Positions 6,326-61,367 of a stretch of DNA of 64,000 nucleotides are shown here, in pieces. Under the pieces are notes generated by a model, which ran no database searches, was not told where the DNA came from, and saw only the letters and a list, made by a program, of their open reading frames with translations. The DNA comes from Opitutia bacterium. GTDB taxonomy: Bacteria; Verrucomicrobiota; Verrucomicrobiia; Opitutales; Opitutaceae. The number at the start of each line of letters is the position of its first letter. The stretch's first letter is position 1. The position numbers and the translations under genes are program-made. The stretch lies in the NCBI GenBank assembly GCA_016187945.1, contig JACPIT010000002.1, positions 124,001 to 188,000 on the forward strand. The letters are read 5' to 3'.

Positions 6326-6331
6326 AAAGCA

Positions 6332-6389
6332 ACGCGGTGCTTCAGCCCGCGCTTCAGGACTCTCAGTGCGGGCTAAAGCACCGCACTAC
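6332..6389. repeat. Double-hairpin repeat, family C (GCGGTGCTTCAGCCCGC core)
   Basis: Two inverted arms with cores GCGGTGCTTCAGCCCGC and its near complement, separated by a short spacer. The same family recurs at 14591, 37238, 40583, 42220 and 58767. It starts 7 bases after the AsmA-like stop codon. With the next two entries it fills the 326-base gap 6326-6651, in which I see no gene. Confidence 0.85.
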
Positions 6390-6413
6390 CCTCAAGCCCA
6401 CGTTCGCGAAAAC

Positions 6414-6490
6414 TGTAGGAGCGGCTTTACGCCGCGATCGGTTCGCTGCGCGTGCCGCGTTCGGATCGCGGCGTAAAGCCGCTCCTACAA
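6414..6490. repeat. Double-hairpin repeat, family B (GTAGGAGCGGCTTTACGCCG core)
   Basis: Left arm GTAGGAGCGGCTTTACGCCG and right arm its inverted copy, with about 24 unrelated bases between. Each arm also folds on itself (GCGGC-tttac-GCCGC). Other copies lie at 14486, 37321, 42303 and 58661. Confidence 0.9.
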
Positions 6491-14448: not shown

Positions 14449-14485
14449 AGCGCGGCCGAGGCGCCGCGGTCGCGATCGATCCGGT

Positions 14486-14562
14486 TCTAGGAGCGGCTTG
14501 ACGCCGCGATTGGTTCGTTGCGTGCGCCGCGCTCGAATCGCGGCGTAAAGCCGCTCCTACAA
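14486..14562. repeat. Double-hairpin repeat, family B
   Basis: Arms TAGGAGCGGCTTGACGCCGC and its inverse around a ~25-base spacer; a one-base variant of the element at 6414. Confidence 0.88.
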
Positions 14563-14590
14563 GAAAGCGCGCGCGAACGCGGGCGCAGAG

Positions 14591-14650
14591 TAGTGCGGTG
14601 CTTTAGCCCGCACTGAAAACGCCCCGGCACGGGCTGAAGCACCGCGCTAC
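14591..14650. repeat. Double-hairpin repeat, family C
   Basis: TAGTGCGGTGCTTTAGCCCG and GGCTGAAGCACCGCGCTAC as inverted arms. It sits between PNP and the convergent lipoprotein gene. Confidence 0.85.
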
Positions 14651-26092: not shown

Positions 26093-26162
26093 GGTAGGGC
26101 GAGTCGTCCCGACGAGCCGTTCCGTCATTCGCAGCGGCTCGTCGGGGACGACTCGCCCTACC
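26093..26162. repeat. Double-hairpin repeat, family A (TAGGGCGAGTCGTCCCGACG core)
   Basis: Left arm GTAGGGCGAGTCGTCCCGAC and right arm GTCGGGGACGACTCGCCCTA form a near-perfect inverted pair. Other copies: 32477 (in purL), 41731 (single arm), 50511 (in the lldD-like gene) and 61442. Confidence 0.92.
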
Positions 26163-29640: not shown

Positions 29641-32600
29641 TCAACCGACCCACGCGCGGGCGTTGTGGAAGAGCTGCATCCAGGGCGACTCTTCGCTCCA
29701 CTCGGCGGGCGCCCAACTGTGGTTGAGCGTGCGCGTGGTGCGTTCCGGGTGCGGCATCATGATCGTCACGCGACCGGTCGTGGTCGTGAGCGCGGTCATG
29801 CCGAAGGGCGAGCCGTTCGGGTTGAGCGGGTAGAGCTCGGTCGGCGTGTGGAAATTGTCCACGTAGCGCGCGGCGACGAGGCCTGACTCGCTGCAGGCGC
29901 GCGCGGCGTCGGCGGTCTTGAACTCGGTGAACCCTTCGCCGTGCGACACGACGACGGGGATGACCGAGCCGGCCATGCCGCGGAAGAGCACGCTCGGGCT
30001 CGGCTCGATCTGCAACGAGACGTAGCGCGCCTCGAAGCGCTCGGATTTGTTCTGCACGAAGTGCGGCCAGTGGTCGGAGCCGGGGATGAGCGAGTGGAGA
30101 TTGCTCATCATCTGGCAGCCGTTGCATACGCCGAGCGCGAAGGCGTCTTCGCGGGCGAAGAACGCCGCGAACTCGTCGCGCGCCTTCGGGTGAAACAAAA
30201 TGCTCTTCGCCCAGCCTTCGCCGGCGCCGAGGACGTCGCCGTAGCTAAAGCCGCCGCACGCCGCGACGCCGCGGAAGTCGCGCAGCGAGACGCGCCCGCT
30301 GAGGATGTCGGTCATGTGCACGTCGACGGCGGTGAAGCCGGCGCGCGTGAACGCCGCGGCCATTTCGACCTGACCGTTCACGCCCTGCTCGCGCAGCACG
30401 GCCACTTTGGGCCGGCTGCGCGAAGTGCGAAGTGACAAGTGAGAAGTAACAAGAGAAGCAGCCGCGTCCGAGTCTTGGGACTTGTCACTTGTCCCTTGGA
30501 ACTTGCTCACCTGAAAGGTGAGCTTCGGCGTGATGCCGGGATTTTCGCGCTGGAGCTTGAGCTGGAATTCCTGCTCGGCGCCCGCGGGGTTGTCGCGGAG
30601 CGATTGGATGCGACGCGTGACGTCGGACCAGAGCGCGCGGAGGGCGAAGAGGTCTTCGTCGTAGAGCACGCGGCCGGCTTGGCGGATGACGACGCGGTGC
30701 TGGGCGTTGAGTTTTCCGATGACGGACGTGCAGGCCTTGAAGCCGTGCGAGCGCAGCGCGAGGACGACGTGGTCGAGATCGGATTGGCGGACTTGGAGAA
30801 CGGCGCCGAGTTCCTCAGCGAAGAGCTGGCCGAAGGCGCTCGGGGCGTTGTCGCTGAGCTTGATCGCGGCGGCGGGCAGATCGAGGTCGATGCCGGTGTG
30901 CCCGGCGAACGCCATCTCGACGGCGGTGACGAGGAGGCCGCCGTCGGAGCGATCGTGGTAGGCGAGAATTTTTTGTTCGCGGCCGAGTTGCTGGATGACG
31001 CTCCAGAAGTTCTTCAAATCTTCGGCGCGGTCGACGTCGGGAGCTTCGGCGCCGGTTTGGTTGACGACCTGCGCGAGAATGGAGCCGCCGAGGCGGTTTT
31101 TGCCGCGGCCGAGATCGACGAGGAGGAGGACGGTTTCGCCGATGGCAAGGTAGGGCGCGGACTCCGCTCCGCGCCGCTCGTTCTCGGCGGCGAAGGGACT
31201 CGCCGCCCTACCATCGTAGCGGAGCTGCGGCGTGAGCGTGAGGCGCACGTCTTCGACGGCGGCGAAGGCGGAGACGATGAGCGAGACGGGCGCGGTCATG
31301 CGCTTTTCCGCGGCGCCGTCTTTCCAGACGGTGCTCATGCTCATCGAGTCTTTGCCGACGGGAATCGTGATGCCGAGCGCGGGGCAGAGTTCCATGCCGA
31401 CAGCTTGCACGGCGGCGTAGAGATCGGCGCCGTCGCTGCCGACGGCGGGCGCGGCCATCCAGTTGGCGGAGAGGTTCACTTTGCCGAGCGCGCCGATCTG
31501 CGCGGCGGCGAGATTCGTGAGCGCTTCGCCGACGGCGAGGCGGGCGGACGCGGCGGCGTTGTTCACGGCGACGGGCGTGCGTTCGCCCATGGCCATTGCT
31601 TCGCCGGTGGTGACGTCGAAGGCCGCGACGGTGACGCCGCAATCGGCGACGGGCACCTGCCACGGGCCGACGAATTGGTCGCGCGCGATGAGTCCGCCGA
31701 CGGAACGGTCGCCGATCGAGATGAGGAAGGTCTTGTCCGCGACGGTCGGGTGGGAGAGCACGCGGCGGACTGCGTCCGCAAGTGACAAGTCGCCAAGTGA
31801 CAAGGGACGAAGGGGCCGCTGCGCGGTGGTCGTCTTGCGGTGCATGCGCGGCGGTTTGCCGAGCAGGACGTCGAGCGGGAGATCGATCGGCTGGTTTTGG
31901 AAATGCGGGTCGTCGAGGACGAGGCGTTTTTCTTCGGTGGCGTCGCCGACGACGGCGAACGGGCAGCGCTCGCGCTCGCAGAGTTTCGCGAAGGCGTCGA
32001 TGCGGTCCACCGGGACGGCGAGCACGTAGCGCTCCTGCGATTCGTTGCACCAGATTTCGAGCGGGCTCATGCCGCGCTCGTCGTTCGGGACTTGGCGCAG
32101 GTTGAAGCGGCCGCCGCGACCGCCGTCGTTCACGAGTTCGGGCAGTGCGTTCGAGAGACCGCCGGCGCCGACGTCGTGGATGAACGAAATGGGATTCGCG
32201 TCGCCGAGCGCCCAGCAACGGTCGATGACCTCCTGGCAGCGGCGCTCCATCTCTGCGTTGTCGCGCTGGACGGAGGCGAAATCGAGATCCTCGGCGCCGG
32301 CGCCGGTCGCCATCGAGCTGGCGGCGCCGCCACCGAGGCCGATGAGCATCGCGGGTCCGCCGAGCACGACGAGTTTGTCACCGGGATTGATCGAGCCCTT
32401 CTTGACGTGATCGGCGCGGATGTTGCCCAAGCCTCCCGCCAGCATAATTGGCTTATGGTAACCGCGGAGTTCCGTGGGGTAGGGCGAACCGTCCCCGGTG
32501 AGCCGAGGCTTCGAAGCGGTGGCGGGGGACGGCTCGACGGGGACGACTCGCCCTAACGAAGCAGCGGGCACTGCCGCTTCATACGTGCGGAAGTAGCCGT

Positions 32601-33765
32601 TGATGGCCGGGCGGCCGAATTCGTTGTTGAAGGCGGCGCCGCCGAGCGGGCCGTCGATCATGATGTCGAGCGCGGAGACGATACGGCCGGGTTTGCCGAA
32701 ATCCTTTTCCCACGGTTGCACGGCGCCGGGGATTTTCAGGTTCGAGACGGTGAAACCGACGAGGCCGGCTTTCGGCTTCGCGCCGCGGCCGGTGGCGCCT
32801 TCGTCGCGGATCTCGCCGCCGGAGCCGGTGGCGGCGCCGGGGAAGGGCGAGATGGCGGTCGGGTGGTTGTGCGTCTCGACCTTGCAGAGCACGTGGATGT
32901 CTTCCGGATGCGCGGCGTATTCGCCGGTCTGCGGGTCGACGTAGAAGCGGCCGCCGCGCGAGCCGACGAGGACGGCGGCGTTGTCCTTGTAGGCGGAGAG
33001 GATGCCGTCGCTGTGCAGTTGATAGGTGTTCTTGATCATCTGGAACAGCGAGCGGTCGCGCGGCTGTCCGTCGATCTCCCAGGAGGCGTTGAAAATTTTG
33101 TGGCGGCAGTGCTCGGAGTTCGCCTGCGCGAACATCATCAGCTCCACGTCGTGCGGATCGCGGCCGAGCTTCGTGAAGGCGGCGACGAGGTAGTCGATTT
33201 CGTCGTCGGCGAGGGCGAGGCCGAGCGTGCGGTTCGCCTCGACGAGGGCGGCGCGGCCTTGCGCGAGCACGGGCACGCTCGTGAGCGGGCGCGGCGCTTC
33301 GTGGCGGAAGAGCGCGGCGCACGACGCGAGGTCGGGGAAAACGACCTGCGTCATGCGGTCGTGGATGCGCGCGGCGAGTTGAGAGTTGAGAGCTGAGAGC
33401 TGAGAGTCGGAAACGTCGCCGAGGTCGAACGTGAAGCTGACGACGCGCTCGATGCGCTCGATCTTGGTCAGTTCGCAGATGTGCGCGATGTCGGTGGCTT
33501 TCGAGGACCACGGCGAAATCGTGCCGGGGCGCGGGGCGACGACGAGCGTGAGACCGCTGACGCTCTCCGCGGCGCGGCTCGGGCCGTAGGTGAGGATTTT
33601 TTCGAGCACCTCGCGCTCGGCGGCGGTCAGGTCGGCGTTCGTTTCGACGACGTGCACGAACTCGGTGCTGATCGCGCGGACCGGCAGGACGGCGGCCTTG
33701 AGATCTTGCAGCAGCTTTTGAAGGCGGAAGTTCGAGAGGGCGGGTGAGCCGCGGAGCGTCAGCAT
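29641..33765 (-). CDS. purL: Phosphoribosylformylglycinamidine synthase, fused long form
   Basis: Fourth step of purine synthesis: FGAR + glutamine + ATP to FGAM. 1374 residues, longer than the usual ~1300. Order: PurS-like N-terminal domain (1-170), linker, two AIR-synthase-like halves (about 175-640 and 670-1080), glutamine amidotransferase (about 1117-1374) with Cys1214 (GVCNGCQ) and [10 protein letters not shown] near the end. ATP-site motifs such as [21 protein letters not shown] are intact. Five segments are encoded by repeat DNA (see separate entries), all between conserved blocks, which accounts for the extra length. I chose ATG 33765; a 94-codon upstream extension contains repeat sequence. 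Divergent from purF. Confidence 0.97.
30421..30505. repeat. In-frame repeat in purL, family K (AAGTGACAAGTGAGAAGT)
   Basis: Inverted pair built from AAGTGACAAGTG-like and CACTTGTCCCTTGG-like words. It encodes about residues 1087-1115 ([13 protein letters not shown] ... [14 protein letters not shown]) in the linker before the amidotransferase domain. Confidence 0.75.
31149..31212. repeat. In-frame double-hairpin repeat in purL (GTAGGGCGCGGACTCCGCTC)
   Basis: Arms GTAGGGCGCGGACTCCGCTC and GAAGGGACTCGCCGCCCTAC. It encodes about residues 852-873 ([20 protein letters not shown]) between the conserved blocks LTPQLRY and [10 protein letters not shown] related arm lies in the helicase gene at 59530. 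Confidence 0.8.
31779..31809. repeat. In-frame repeat in purL, family K fragment
   Basis: AAGTGACAAGTCGCCAAGTG and the following ACAAGGG are copies of the family K word. It encodes about residues 653-663 ([11 protein letters not shown]) at the junction of the two AIR-synthase-like halves. Confidence 0.6.
32477..32555. repeat. In-frame double-hairpin repeat in purL, family A
   Basis: GGTAGGGCGAACCGTCCCCG and GGGGACGACTCGCCCTAAC are inverted arms. It encodes about residues 404-430 ([20 protein letters not shown]) in the loop between YFRTYEA and [13 protein letters not shown]. Confidence 0.9.
33376..33409. repeat. In-frame tandem repeat in purL, family L (GAGTTGAGAGTTGAGAGCTG)
   Basis: Tandem 7-base-like words GAGAGTT/GAGAGCT. 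It encodes about residues 119-131 ([13 protein letters not shown]) in a loop of the N-terminal domain. Confidence 0.65.
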
Positions 33766-37237: not shown

Positions 37238-37300
37238 AGTAGCGCGGTGCTTCAGCCTGCGCCGGAGATTTTTCAGTGCGGGCTGAAGCACCGCACTACT
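37238..37300. repeat. Double-hairpin repeat, family C
   Basis: AGTAGCGCGGTGCTTCAGCC and GGCTGAAGCACCGCACTACT inverted. Preceding bases 37173-37235 contain several degenerate GTAGCG starts. The gap 37160-37464 holds only this and the next element. Confidence 0.85.
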
Positions 37301-37320
37301 CCGAGCCCATGCTCGCGAGA

Positions 37321-37400
37321 GTTGTAGGAGCGGTTTTATGCCGCGATTCGTGCGCGGCATGCGCATCGCCGCAATCGCGGCGTAAAGCCGCTCCTACAAC
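37321..37400. repeat. Double-hairpin repeat, family B
   Basis: GTTGTAGGAGCGGTTTTATG and CGTAAAGCCGCTCCTACAAC inverted; the left core has mutated CTTTAC to TTTTAT. Confidence 0.88.
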
Positions 37401-42089: not shown

Positions 42090-42219
42090 ACCACGTCGGT
42101 TGCTACGATCGTGTCGACTGCTGCGATCGTGCAGCGAAAGGCGGGTGAAGGTGAAGCCCAAGTTGCCCGCGCGCTGCGCGCCGTCGGCGCCAGTCGGCGG
42201 TGAGCGTTGCGTCTGGTGA

Positions 42220-42281
42220 GTAGCGCGGTGCTTTAGCCCGCGCAGGCGGATTTTCAGGGCGGGCTGAAGCACCGCGCTACC
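42220..42281. repeat. Double-hairpin repeat, family C
   Basis: GTAGCGCGGTGCTTTAGCCC and GGGCTGAAGCACCGCGCTAC inverted arms. Confidence 0.9.
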
Positions 42282-42302
42282 CCAAGCCCGCGCTCGCGAG
42301 AG

Positions 42303-42382
42303 TTGTAGGAGCGGCTTTACGCCGCGATTGTTTGGCGGAGCGCATGCCGCGCTCGTGTCGCGGCGTAAAGCCGCTCCTACAA
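42303..42382. repeat. Double-hairpin repeat, family B
   Basis: TTGTAGGAGCGGCTTTACGC and GCGTAAAGCCGCTCCTACAA inverted arms with a 40-base spacer. Confidence 0.92.
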
Positions 42383-49837: not shown

Positions 49838-51169
49838 ATGAGTTCACCCCACTCGGACATTGGCCGGCAGCGGCAGCGTGCAATCTACGTTTCTGGTGTC
49901 GCCGGCAAACGACCGCGCGTGCCGGTCGCGTCCGTCGAACTCGAGCTTGCGGCGCAGGCGGTAATGTCGCCGGAGGCCTTCGCCTACGTCGCGGGTGGGG
50001 CCGGGCGTGAGACGACGATGGACGCCAACCGCGCGGCGCTGGATCGATGGCGGATCGTCCCGCGCGAGCTGCGCGACTGCGAGCAGCGCGATTTGTCGGT
50101 CGAGCTGTTCGGACGGAAGTTGCCGTCGCCGCTGTTGCTCGCGCCGATCGGTGTGGCGGAGATGGCGCACCGCGACGCCGATCTCGCGGTTGCGCGCGCG
50201 GCGGCTTCGATGCGGGTGCCGCACATTTTTTCCAATCAGGCTTCCGTTCCGATGGAGGCCTGCACGGCGGCGATGGGCGATGCGCCGCGGTGGTTTCAGC
50301 TTTATTGGAGCAAGTCGAACGATGTCGTGGCCAGCTTCGTGCGCCGCGCCGAGGCGTGCGGGTGTGAGGCGATCGTGCTTACGCTCGACACGACGATGCT
50401 CGGCTGGCGGCCGCGCGATCTGGCGCTCGCTTACCTGCCGTTCCTCGAAGGCAAGGGCATCGCGCAATACACGAGCGATCCGGTGTTCATGCGCGAGGTG
50501 CGGGAGGCGGGTAGGGCGAGTCGTCCCGACGAGCCGTTGCCCGAACGCGGCTCACCGGGGACGGTTCGCCCTACCGCCGGCCCCAGGCCGCCGCTCACCT
50601 TGCGGACCATCGCCACGGCCCTGGCGCAGAAGGCGAATTTTCCCGGCGGGCTGCTCAGGAACCTCGCGTCCGCCGAGCCGCGTGCGGCGGTGCAGCGTTT
50701 CGTCGCGACTTACTCGCGGCCGAACGTCACGTGGGACGATCTGAAATTTCTCCGCGAGCACACGAAGCTGCCGATCGTGCTCAAGGGCGTGCTGCACGCG
50801 GACGACGCGAAGCTCGCGCTCGCACACGGCGTCGACGGGTTGATTGTCTCGAATCACGGCGGGCGGCAGATCGACGGCGAGGTTGCGTCGCTCGACGCGT
50901 TGCCGGGCGTGGTCGACGCCGTCGCAGGAAAAATTCCGGTGCTCTTCGACAGCGGCGTGCGCGGCGGTGCGGACGTGTTCAAGGCGCTTGCGCTCGGTGC
51001 GACGGCGGTGTGCCTCGGGCGGCCTTACGTCTACGGTCTTGCGCTGGCGGGCGAGGAAGGCGTGCGCGAGGTGATCGCGAACGTGCTGGCCGAGTTCGAT
51101 CTGACGCTGGGCTTGGCGGGATGCGCGAGCGTGCAGGAGATCGGTCGCGGGAGCCTGGTCCGAGGGTAG
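49838..51169 (+). CDS. FMN-dependent L-2-hydroxyacid dehydrogenase/oxidase, lldD-like
   Basis: Oxidises L-lactate or a similar 2-hydroxyacid with FMN. 443 residues: [77 protein letters not shown], catalytic His340 ([10 protein letters not shown]), [32 protein letters not shown]. Residues 225-247 ([20 protein letters not shown]) come from an in-frame family A repeat in the variable loop 4 region. Electron acceptor unknown: oxygen, quinone or cytochrome are all possible. ATG 49838 follows GGCCACCCC; the frame reaches back to 49742. Confidence 0.92.
50511..50576. repeat. In-frame double-hairpin repeat in the lldD-like gene, family A
   Basis: GTAGGGCGAGTCGTCCCGAC and CCGGGGACGGTTCGCCCTAC inverted arms. 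The insert keeps the reading frame open. Confidence 0.92.
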
Positions 51170-58615: not shown

Positions 58616-58660
58616 GTTTGGCGCGCGGCGCGCGGCGTGATGTCGGCGCCGGTGCGGCAG

Positions 58661-58742
58661 TTGTAGGAGCGGCTTTACGCCGCGACTGGTGCGAGGCCTG
58701 CGTCGTGTCCGAACCAATCGCGGCGTAAAGCCGCTCCTACAG
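58661..58742. repeat. Double-hairpin repeat, family B
   Basis: TTGTAGGAGCGGCTTTACGC and GCGTAAAGCCGCTCCTACAG inverted arms with a ~40-base spacer. No gene is seen in 58474-58823. Confidence 0.92.
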
Positions 58743-58766
58743 TTCCTGCGAGCGCGAGGGTTTGGG

Positions 58767-58827
58767 GTAGCGCGGTGCTTTAGCCCGCGCCGAGAAATTT
58801 TCAGCGCGGGCTGAACCCTCGCGCTAC
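58767..58827. repeat. Double-hairpin repeat, family C, containing the helicase stop codon
   Basis: GTAGCGCGGTGCTTTAGCCC and GCGGGCTGAACCCTCGCGCT inverted arms. The TAG stop of the minus-strand helicase (58824-58826) is formed by the outer GTAG/CTAC end of the element. Confidence 0.85.
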
Positions 58828-61367
58828 TGCGCCAGCCACTCGTCCAGTTCCGTCGTCGTGAAAACCTCGCGATACTGCTGGCACTCGGGATCGAGCAGCG
58901 CCGCGTAGCTCGGCTCGGCGAAGCGCTTGCAGTGGAGCAGCACCTTGGCGCGGTGGCCGGGGCCGCGCACGAGGCGGCCGAGCGCCTGGTTCACTTTCTG
59001 CAAACCGGGGATCTGATACACGCGCCGGAACGCGGCGTCGCGGCCGAGCGCGCTGAAGGCGTCGAGGCGGGCGCGTTGCACAGCGTTCACCTCCGGCAGC
59101 GCGGGGCCGACAACCATCGCGTGCGACACGCGGCCGCCGAGCAGGTCGATGCTCTCGGCAAAGCTGCTGCCGAGCACGAGAAACAGCGCGTCGGAGAGCG
59201 CGAGCGTTTCCTCGACCCAGGCGGCTTGCGCGGCGAGCTCGGGGAGCTTCGGTTGCAGCGCGGCGCGGATGGGCGAGCCGATCTGGTCGAGCGCGCGCAG
59301 GACGTTTTCCGCGTAAGCGTAAGAGGGGAAAAAGACAGCGACCGCGCCGCCGGACGCGGCGTGCAAGCGCTCGATGGTCTCGGCGGTCGTGCCGTAGGTG
59401 GCGGCGCGCTCGCGCAGCGTCGTCGAGACGCGCAAATCCACCGCGACGTCGTAGGCGCCGTGCCGCCACGGTGCGGGTGCGCGGAGCGCGGAATAGGTCG
59501 GGCGGGCCGTCTCTTGCTCGCCGTGGTTCGGCGCGGAGCGGAGTCCGCGCCCTACCGCGACGCCGCACGAGGCGGCGAATTGATCGAACGGCGCGAGCGT
59601 GGCCGACATCAGCAGCGCACCGCCGAAGGCGCCGAGCGATTCGCCGATGGCCGCGCTGGCGTCGACGCACGTGAACTCCAACTCGCCTTCGCGGCGCGAC
59701 CAGAGCAGGCGATGCAGGCGCGTGTCGTCGAGGAACTCGTGGAGCTTGGCGAATTGCCAGAGCGTCTCGCTGTGGTGCGGGCCGAGCGCGGCGTAGTCGA
59801 GCGGGAGCGTCGTGACGAGTTCGGCGAGCCGATCGAGGGCGTCGCGCACGTCGGCCTCGAGCGCGCCGTCGAGCACTTCGCACGGCGAGACGCTGGCGAG
59901 CGTGCGCGCCCAGGTCTCGACGGCGAGGATGAGCGGCGTCGGCGCTTGCAGGTGGTCGAGCTCGGCGAGCAGCGCGCGCACATCGCCGTCGTGTGCAGTG
60001 TGCGAGTAGGCGTCGGCGACGCGCGAGGGGAGGTTGTGCGCCTCGTCGACGATCAGCAGCGTGCGCGCGGCGTCGAAGCCCGGTTGATCGAAAAACAGCC
60101 CGCGGTTGTCCGGTGCGAAGACGTAGTTGTAGTCGCCGATCCAGACGTCGTTGAACGCGAGTGCCGTGCGCGTGATCTCGTAGGGGCAGATGCGCGCTTC
60201 GCGACCGGCGGCGCGCAGCGCGTCGAGGTCGTGGGGCTGCGTCGGATCGCGGTAGAAGCGGGCGAGGCCGCTCGACGGCCAGCGCTCCTCCGCTCCGGCG
60301 AGGTAGCCGCAGTTGTCGCGCACGCAGTGAAACTCGACGTTCACGCAATGCTCGCCCTTGTTGCGCACCTGCCAGAACGCCAGCGGTTCGGGCGAAGTGT
60401 AACCTAATAGGTTACACTTTTCCGGGGCGGGCGCGGCGGACGGCGGGGGCGGACTGTCACCTGACGGGCGACAGTTTTCCGCCGGCTGCGTCATGCGGCG
60501 GAGCGTTTCGACGACTTGAAGCTGGCCGGTGGATTTGCCGGTGAGCCAGATGAGGCGGTCGTAGCGGCCGGACTTCAACTCGCCGAGCGCGAACTCGAGC
60601 GCGCAGCCGGTCTTGCCGTAGCCGGTGGGCGCCTCCAGCAGGACGATTGCGGATTGCGGACTGCGGATTGCGGATTGAGCGACGGCGGGCGAGCCATGAA
60701 AGGCGGCGGCGAGGTCTTGCTGGATCGTTTCCTGGCCGGGGCGGAGCGACGCGAAGGGTGAATGGAAGCGGAGGCGGTGGCGGCGCTCGGCGGCGCGGAG
60801 CTGCAGCTCGAGAAACTCGACGACGGCGTCGAGCTGGTGGTGAACGAGGGCCTCGTCGAACGCGGTGAGCGCGAGCGTCTGTGCGAGGCCGGAGGAGGCT
60901 TCGACGAAGACGAGTTCGGCGCGGAGCGTGGCGCGGTTGAGCGTTGCGAGATGCGCGTGGTGCGCGGTGGTGCGCGCGAGGACGGCGTAGGTGGCGAGCT
61001 GGAGGAAATAGGGGCCGTAGTCGGCGCGCAGCTCGGCTTCGTCGGCGGGGAGCGGGCGCGTGACGGTTTTGATTTCGCGGAGCGTCGAGCCGACGAGTTG
61101 GTCGATGCGGCCGCCGAGCGCGACCGTCCAGCCGCGGTGCACGAGGCGGCCTTCGATCGGGATTTCGAAGGCGACGTCGGGCCGCAGGGCGCCGTCCACC
61201 GAATGCTCGCGCTCGGTCTGCGCGCGGAGTTCGTTGTGCCAGTGCTGGCCGAGTTGCGCGCGCCAGATGCCCGCGGAGCCGCCGCCGCTCTCGCGCGGGC
61301 CGAGCGCGAAGTCCGAAAACTCGCCGACGCTCAGGCTGGCGGACTTGTTGGCGAGGGAGAATTGCAT
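58824..61367 (-). CDS. Fusion of RecB/Cas4-like nuclease domain and XPD/DinG-like helicase
   Basis: 847 residues. N-terminal part (about 1-205) resembles a PD-(D/E)XK nuclease: VALGGRIDQLVGSTLREIKTVT has the Asp and Glu-x-Lys pattern. Helicase part: Walker A EAPTGYGKT (Lys252), DEAH box at 441-444 (VDEAHNLPSR), four cysteines for an Fe-S cluster (Cys341, 348, 353, 394), LLMSATLAPFD, and the C-terminal motor with LGRLVRGPGHRAKVLL. Predicted 5'-3' DNA helicase-nuclease for repair. Three repeat-derived segments lie between motifs (entries below). I chose ATG 61367 (QFSLANKSASLSVGEFSDF); the frame stays open far upstream through a repeat and the RND gene's shadow. Confidence 0.88.
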   Translation of the reverse strand: MQFSLANKSASLSVGEFSDFALGPRESGGGSAGIWRAQLGQHWHNELRAQTEREHSVDGALRPDVAFEIPIEGRLVHRGWTVALGGRIDQLVGSTLREIKTVTRPLPADEAELRADYGPYFLQLATYAVLARTTAHHAHLATLNRATLRAELVFVEASSGLAQTLALTAFDEALVHHQLDAVVEFLELQLRAAERRHRLRFHSPFASLRPGQETIQQDLAAAFHGSPAVAQSAIRSPQSAIVLLEAPTGYGKTGCALEFALGELKSGRYDRLIWLTGKSTGQLQVVETLRRMTQPAENCRPSGDSPPPPSAAPAPEKCNLLGYTSPEPLAFWQVRNKGEHCVNVEFHCVRDNCGYLAGAEERWPSSGLARFYRDPTQPHDLDALRAAGREARICPYEITRTALAFNDVWIGDYNYVFAPDNRGLFFDQPGFDAARTLLIVDEAHNLPSRVADAYSHTAHDGDVRALLAELDHLQAPTPLILAVETWARTLASVSPCEVLDGALEADVRDALDRLAELVTTLPLDYAALGPHHSETLWQFAKLHEFLDDTRLHRLLWSRREGELEFTCVDASAAIGESLGAFGGALLMSATLAPFDQFAASCGVAVGRGLRSAPNHGEQETARPTYSALRAPAPWRHGAYDVAVDLRVSTTLRERAATYGTTAETIERLHAASGGAVAVFFPSYAYAENVLRALDQIGSPIRAALQPKLPELAAQAAWVEETLALSDALFLVLGSSFAESIDLLGGRVSHAMVVGPALPEVNAVQRARLDAFSALGRDAAFRRVYQIPGLQKVNQALGRLVRGPGHRAKVLLHCKRFAEPSYAALLDPECQQYREVFTTTELDEWLAQ
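59530..59556. repeat. In-frame repeat arm in the helicase gene
   Basis: GCGCGGAGCGGAGTCCGCGC followed by CCTACC is the same arm as in purL at 31149, in reverse orientation. It encodes about residues 604-613 ([10 protein letters not shown]). Confidence 0.75.
60395..60419. repeat. Perfect 25-base palindrome within the helicase gene
   Basis: AAGTGTAACCTA and TAGGTTACACTT around one central base. It encodes KCNLLGYTS, with Cys318, just before the Fe-S cysteines. Confidence 0.85.
60453..60475. repeat. Second short palindrome within the helicase gene
   Basis: ACTGTCACC and GGGCGACAGT pair with one mismatch. It encodes NCRPSGDSP, 13 residues upstream of the previous element. Confidence 0.65.
60644..60677. 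repeat. 7-base tandem repeat before the Walker A motif
   Basis: GGATTGC or GGACTGC repeated about 4.5 times. It encodes about residues 231-242 (QSAIRSPQSAI), ten residues before EAPTGYGKT. Confidence 0.8.

Follow-up and report, generated by a model that had tools for sequence, protein, structure and literature searches.

The purL gene of an Opitutia bacterium contains repeat DNA that is read as protein at five places. The gene lies in a stretch of 64,000 nucleotides (contig JACPIT010000002.1, positions 124,001 to 188,000; hereafter the window), and we refer to the five patches as I1 to I5. Repeat DNA is present at all five, on the minus strand, where an earlier note on this DNA had located it, and it comes from several families, as that note had also stated. 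Its description of all five patches as in-frame insertions holds for I2, I4, and I5, which lengthen the protein; I1 and I3 are repeat-like DNA replacing native sequence, without a clear net insertion. According to our best explanation, to which we assign a probability of roughly 0.8, purL holds two classes of translated dispersed DNA, i.e., GTAG-type repetitive extragenic palindromic (REP) doublets and heptanucleotide arrays, whose copies are filtered by selection.

Repeat DNA in purL

The identity of the gene was confirmed by a match to NCBIfam NF003672. No other full-length PurL match was obtained in the 5.47-Mb genome; four further matches were short, covered I2 or I4, and lay within other open frames. 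The nearest named PurL relatives (a ranking from which the gene's own record was possibly excluded) belong to Opitutaceae and other Opitutia, followed mostly by Gammaproteobacteria with 57–61% identity, which makes membership of the genome in Opitutaceae very probable. For comparison, we used 38 Opitutia genes (36 distinct, with two pairs identical or contained; some are truncated at the ends of their loci) and a further 72 purL genes. Unless stated to be genome-wide, repeat statistics for the own genome refer to a 464-kb sample, and genes were called with a simple custom script instead of a standard gene finder. Codon bias in the GC-rich genome confounded both fuzzy k-mer counts and a blastn search of this sample with purL, and the top k-mer rows held backbone windows besides I2 and I4. 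Both were replaced by Markov expectations, scans for periodicity, and an assessment of codon rarity. Rfam, applied to the whole window at the gathering threshold, matched a tRNA alone.

The patches I2 and I4 both show a GTAG end adjoining a short hairpin. The pattern of family A, to which I2 belongs, had 96 matches genome-wide and none for the reversed control, and 11 family A doublets, with units paired in opposite orientation, were found in the 464 kb. Family A2 (I4) yielded eight matches per unit, purL included, and none for the control; both A2 units stand close together at five intergenic places. Neither a GTAG end nor an association with a REP-associated tyrosine transposase (RAYT) was found for the heptamer words of I1, I3, and I5. 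I1 and I5 consist of tandem 7-nucleotide (nt) units that are dispersed in the genome. The AAGTNAC pattern of I5 had 36 genome matches, some overlapping within arrays, and none for the control, and the 21-base GAGAGTT pattern of I1 had 106 overlapping genome matches compared to 34 in the control, a count raised by the close similarity of the reversed word to the repeat itself. In I3, two AAGTGACAAG copies are spaced 15 nt apart. AAGTGACAAG was observed six times, four of them within purL, against an expectation of 0.13, and GAGAGTTGAG 17 times against 0.69. Scans of the same sample revealed 21 segments of period 7 and 11 of period 14, compared to 0–2 at eight other non-triplet periods. When the 1366 nine-codon windows of purL are ranked by codon rarity, the top 40 all lie inside I5, I2, I3, and I1; the rarest window of I3 ranks about ninth, with eight ahead of it.

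Table 1. Positions of purL, its repeat patches, and further repeats in the window (aa, amino acids)
Feature	Positions	Strand	Remark
purL, long-type phosphoribosylformylglycinamidine synthase (FGAM synthase)	29641..33765	-	1374 aa
I1, GAGAGTT/CTCTCAA heptamer array	33376..33406	-	reads as 11 aa replacing native residues
I2, GTAG-type REP doublet, family A	32479..32556	-	78 nt; one end TTAG
I3, two AAGTGACAAG words	31780..31804	-	within LSLGDLSLA; length unchanged; rare codons
I4, GTAG-type REP heterodoublet, family A2	31150..31211	-	
I5, arm of AAGTGAC heptamers	30420..30453	-	reads as 12 aa
I5, inverted arm of AAGTGAC heptamers	30474..30505	-	reads as 12 aa
Family A REP doublet in FMN-dependent dehydrogenase gene (49919-51169)	50511..50574	+	G007 orthologue 18 aa shorter there
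A2 REP unit in DEAD_2 helicase gene (58824-61367)	59530..59555	-	G007: different REP at same place; G001: neither, 19 aa shorter
GATTGCG heptamer array in DEAD_2 helicase gene	60645..60677	-	read QSAIRSPQSAI; G001 orthologue 13 aa shorter
Intergenic family A REP doublet, for comparison	26094..26161		

The earlier note had expected the segments to be missing or different in length in relatives. At I2, I4, and I5, length differs. The I2 site measures 38 aa here and 12 aa in 12 of the 38 Opitutia genes; in the congener G007 it is shorter by exactly 78 nt, the length of the REP doublet. The I4 site measures 33 aa, compared to 9 aa in 18 genes, and thereby exceeds the common lengths of 12 or 9 aa by about 21–24 aa, and the I5 site measures 42 aa, compared to 19–25 aa in 19 genes. 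No clear difference was seen at the other two sites. At I1, our 24 aa compare to 22–23 aa in 18/38 and 29 aa in 10/38 Opitutia genes, and to 18–23 aa in the 72 others; at I3, the 20 aa are shared by 27/38 Opitutia genes, and all 72 distant genes have 20–21 aa. The same note held that peptides conserved in distant PurL proteins without DNA repeats would speak against its view. This is partly the case at I3, where the motif is partly common to relatives and to the 72 genes lacking period-7 segments; the codons encoding it here, however, are rare and repeat-like.

A scan of 99 orthologue pairs for length-neutral divergent blocks yielded four, namely I1 in purL, the REP site in the helicase gene, and one place in a DEAD-box protein (two pairs, without a period-7 signal). 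Length-neutral exchange therefore rests on I1, with I3 and the REP-for-REP exchange in the helicase beside it. Such patches may have arisen either through short templated copying from a repeat copy or through an insertion for which a deletion compensated; we favor copying, because I3 keeps its motif and both of its edges are sharp. We tentatively propose that repeat words overwrite structured coding sequence at constant length, with a later word-for-word exchange, and that the dispersed heptamers may provide essential enzymes of this class with a lasting supply of preformed heptad helices.

The structure models did not bear out the placement of all patches on loops. I1 is modeled in a helix (residues 120–134) with a predicted local distance difference test score (pLDDT) of about 90, and I3 with a pLDDT of 83–95, leading into the helix 662–670. 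I4 and I5 are modeled below a pLDDT of 50, and the I2 stretch is poorly modeled throughout; we therefore draw no structural inference for I2. A Foldseek search with the first fragment retrieved solved PurL with a TM-score of just 0.36–0.37.

Recurrence across Opitutia and exchange between congeners

Heptamer arrays recur in purL of the class. In the 38 Opitutia genes, we identified 38 period-7 segments (in 18 genes) and 27 period-14 segments, compared to none of either in the 72 others. Other non-triplet periods (8, 10, 11, 13, 16, and 17) yielded 0–2 segments in Opitutia and 0–3 in the 72 others, i.e., three at period 8 and one at period 17. All 38 period-7 segments fall on a list of seven sites that was drawn up after the first 30 genes had been seen (I2, 17 segments; I5, eight; I1, six; I4, four; aa 60–80, two; aa 958–975, one; I3, none). 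The words vary among species, including CTCTCAR, CTACTCG, CATTCCG, GAGCCCA, AAATCCC, AAGTNAC, and ACTCGTC, and the same sites are also used by at least three kinds of GTAG-like REPs and by ACAGAG hairpins, as judged by eye. Of the rare-codon patches, 67/115 fell at six sites in Opitutia, compared to 21/150 in the other genes (p = 3e-14), counted in genes with a GC content at third codon positions ≥0.75 (31/38 Opitutia, 47/72 others).

Multi-state parsimony on a FastTree tree built from the rest of the protein gave 6, 16, 9, 12, and 18 state changes at I1 to I5 in the 38 genes. The labels are rough, include unclassified extra length, and look spurious for L018 at I3 and L019 at I5; the total of 61 changes is therefore to be read as an order of magnitude. 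This repeated turnover agrees with the continual spread of repeats that the earlier note had suggested. Distribution of the words is patchy: among 57 related genomes, CTCTCAR was found in 17, CTACYCG in 19, and CTTGTYAC in 12, with five and two matches in all for the reversed controls of CTACYCG and CTTGTYAC, respectively. As a side observation, 14 of the 20 genomes G037–G056, from other families of the order, match purL weakly and in parts, five have no match, and G046 matches strongly, which suggests that most of them use the short PurL/PurQ type.

Within the genus, one heptamer word has been exchanged for another. The congeners G001 and G007 are sisters, with 93.3% identity to each other and 84.5 and 84.9% to our genome (27 orthologues), and their pairing has a support of 0.89 in the PurL tree. 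At I1, CTCTCAG is nevertheless common to our gene and G001, whereas G007 carries CTACTCG. G007 differs from both at 19/19 codons of this block and is one codon shorter; outside the sites, this applies to 171/1176 codons, with a longest run of four, and to the right of the block to 0/10. At I3, our gene and G001 share the repeat-like codons, and G007 has ordinary codons that are unlike both at 15/21 positions, with 1/12 such codons in the left flank and 0/16 in the right. At I5, an ACAGAG element is common to G001 and G007, compared to AAGTGAC in our gene.

Frame filtering, mobilization, and alternative explanations

REP families differ in whether they occur inside genes. Doublets lie within genes in 5/11 cases for family A, 0/24 for family B, and 0/14 for family C (p = 2.4e-4), and single units in 13/33 (three doubtful), 0/55, and 0/33 cases. 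Doublets of family B measure 51–78 nt (17/24 exactly 74 nt) and those of family C 60–62 nt. Frame filtering of REP copies, as the earlier note had proposed, is thus supported, and selection would be the cause of the bias; since stop content also differs among the families, the effects of length and of stops are not separated. Families B and C also stand side by side in the window (6328-6490, 14484-14650, 37238-37399, 42219-42380, and 58660-58827).

Heptamer arrays relate to the reading frame in another way. As 7 is not a multiple of 3, each strand of an array encodes the same heptad peptide in all frames, as translation of the words showed, and a stop-free array is therefore readable in any frame. 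S. Ohno is said to have put forward the idea that repeats of non-triplet oligomers are frame-proof. The stop-bearing strand is read in three genes at the same site, perhaps going back to one event; there, the TGA of the unit reads TCA.

A gene for a Y1 transposase with an H-x-H motif, i.e., a RAYT (G000:C11:5711; L040/L174), carries family A doublets on both flanks. A RAYT gene flanked by its repeat is a described arrangement (PMC3733652, in part), and mobilization of I2-type REPs by the family A RAYT is plausible. A Mur ligase gene (L174:3986-5518) adjoins this RAYT gene, contains an in-frame family A REP, and ends inside another. Different hairpin repeats, among them the GTAGGAGCGGCTTTACGCC family of the window, flank other Y1 transposase genes (L038, L039, and L041).

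In the preferred scenario, one class would comprise the REP doublets (I2 and I4), with the I2 family probably moved by a RAYT transposase; doublets would land in tolerant sites, and their survival would require a fitting length and frame. The other class would comprise the heptanucleotide arrays, often hairpins with inverted arms, to which I1 and I5 and, by its words, I3 may be assigned. Selection would retain copies that keep the frame, are free of stops, and are compatible with the fold, such that copies at I2, I4, and I5 would lengthen the protein, those at I1 and I3 would replace native codons at about the same length, and different elements would come to use the same sites in different species.

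Several points weigh against this scenario. PurL with translated repeat patches is a predicted protein, known here from the gene sequence alone. The structure models were built for fragments, with 33 sequences each, reached mean pLDDT values of 64 and 70, and owe part of their low confidence at I2 and I5 to truncation. No period-7 segment was called at I3 in any of the 38 Opitutia genes. To the left of the I1 block, G007 is already unlike the other two at 5/10 codons, leaving only the right edge sharp, and the 37 other Opitutia genes did not include a close donor allele for the blocks of G007. Regarding the frame filter, two A doublets out of the five located in genes have end-to-end lengths of 64 and 65 nt, which are not multiples of 3, 5/24 B and 2/14 C doublets are multiples of 3 yet lie outside genes, and the families also differ in their open frames out of six (A, 2–4; B, mostly 2; C, 1–3). 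Finally, the eight Y1 transposase loci of 3.2 kb each, examined for a link to the heptamers, contained no period-7 array and thus gave no mobilizer for the heptamer class; an A2-flanked RAYT was likewise not seen among the hairpins at these loci, for which no pattern search was made.

Three other explanations were considered. If I1 and I3 were native, their likeness to repeats would result from codon reuse in leucine- and serine-rich segments. The peptides at both sites do fit PurL, and I3 retains the length and motif of its site and lacks a period-7 call. However, I3 ranks among the windows with the rarest codons, two of the six AAGTGACAAG copies in the 464 kb lie there, and its 27 nt recur almost unchanged in an intergenic copy (L056:5188-5219, by eye). 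At I1, the period-7 arrays of different species are built from three unrelated words, besides a CACTCAA variant, compared to no such array in the 72 other purL genes. We therefore regard a native origin as very improbable. Alternatively, homologous recombination could have brought in purL alleles from other lineages and so caused the differences between congeners at I1 and I3, the repeats traveling with the alleles and not on their own. Near-ordinary or zero divergence on both sides of the I3 block would agree with this, as would decayed CTACTCG-like sequence at I1 in L013, L015, and L026 (by eye); yet the G007 blocks reach best alignment scores of only 0.33 and 0.35 per base against the 37 other Opitutia genes, and the same heptamer words are dispersed through the genomes, which makes recombination an unlikely source.

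Replication slippage from chance seeds would let heptamer arrays arise in place, without being mobile. That G000 and G001 contain pure CTCTCAG arrays, with 15 and 10 units, respectively, points in this direction, and a local origin was proposed for the tandem repeats of Borgs (PMC9879509, in part). An origin by slippage appears doubtful, however, as the same words occur at many places in several genera, several intergenic copies are inverted pairs, and in-gene copies can hold both arms (I5 and dnaE).

Other genes and known repeat systems

Further genes carry the same kinds of repeats. Of 36 heptamer arrays listed for the own genome, 11 lie within genes, four at gene edges, and 21 between genes, with gene interiors making up 80% of the DNA; paired arms are not independent in these counts. 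Genes with heptamer arrays include dnaE (three arrays) and those encoding a RecD2-like helicase, an RsmB-like methyltransferase, and a protein with a transglutaminase domain, and REPs were found in genes for the FMN dehydrogenase and the Mur ligase. For dnaE, 30 loci were kept from 42 genomes with a match. In the 23 genes of the family, one of them partial, 16 period-7 segments were found, each located at aa 860–892 or 1005–1021, and the seven genes from other families hold none.

Comparisons with published systems draw on parts of the cited articles. GTAG repeats inside open reading frames (ORFs), including those of replication and repair genes, were reported before, most of them in Opitutus terrae (PMC3733652). 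Like the REPs described here, they have GTAG ends, form doublets, flank RAYT genes, and occur in ORFs; the REP part of our findings is therefore of a known kind. The main text of that article does not name purL, its single same-site case in section 15 is recB in two Xanthomonas species, and the parts examined contain nothing on heptamer arrays or length-neutral replacement. The palindromic elements of Rickettsia (PMC10969869, PMC3733652), to which the earlier note had likened the patches, are, by description, likewise small in-frame palindromes in protein genes, and the analogy stands; in contrast to them, heptamer words and length-neutral patches also occur here. Heptanucleotide tandem repeats of Calothrix, Nostoc, and Xanthomonas (GGGAATC) share the 7-nt unit, several words, inverted pairs, and a mostly intergenic location (PMC4692102). 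The intragenic share was 11% in one xanthomonad, 7% in another, and as high as 32% in Nostoc, whereas the arrays described here recur at fixed sites of essential enzymes. The main text of that article does not use the terms 'in-frame' and 'peptide', and according to it, detailed literature on heptameric repeats was not available in 2015. Tandem repeats of Borgs are likewise translated in ORFs and form a conserved hotspot, but their in-ORF units are all divisible by three (PMC9879509), unlike the unit of 7 found here. PARCEL sequences also encode amphipathic repeats in dyad-symmetric DNA, but these form tandem domains of 25 residues in ORFs without an assigned function, many of them membrane-targeted, and not short patches in enzymes (PMC2996958). 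Our searches of the open-licence PMC literature yielded no account of heptamer arrays that recur as coding inserts in essential enzymes independently of the frame, nor of repeats overwriting sequence at unchanged length.

At a small number of recurring sites in housekeeping enzymes, dispersed DNA of several unrelated kinds is supplying protein segments again and again, and the many species serve as natural replicates. As a 7-nt unit yields the same heptad irrespective of the frame, short repeats can provide material for helices, and the question of how repeat DNA turns into protein is directly testable in PurL and DnaE.

Two further observations concern repeats outside purL. Near-identical AAGCTCC hairpins stand at several gene junctions of operon-like clusters (L061:1236-6574; G000:C6, about 108373-112288, L048), and in two cases an ACAGAG-type hairpin is nested inside. 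The pure CTCTCAG arrays mentioned above (G000:C16 from 37636, L172; G001:C12 from 205283, L173) share the same gene neighborhood in the two congeners, beside an apparent ribonucleotide reductase gene (by eye), and possibly reflect active slippage.

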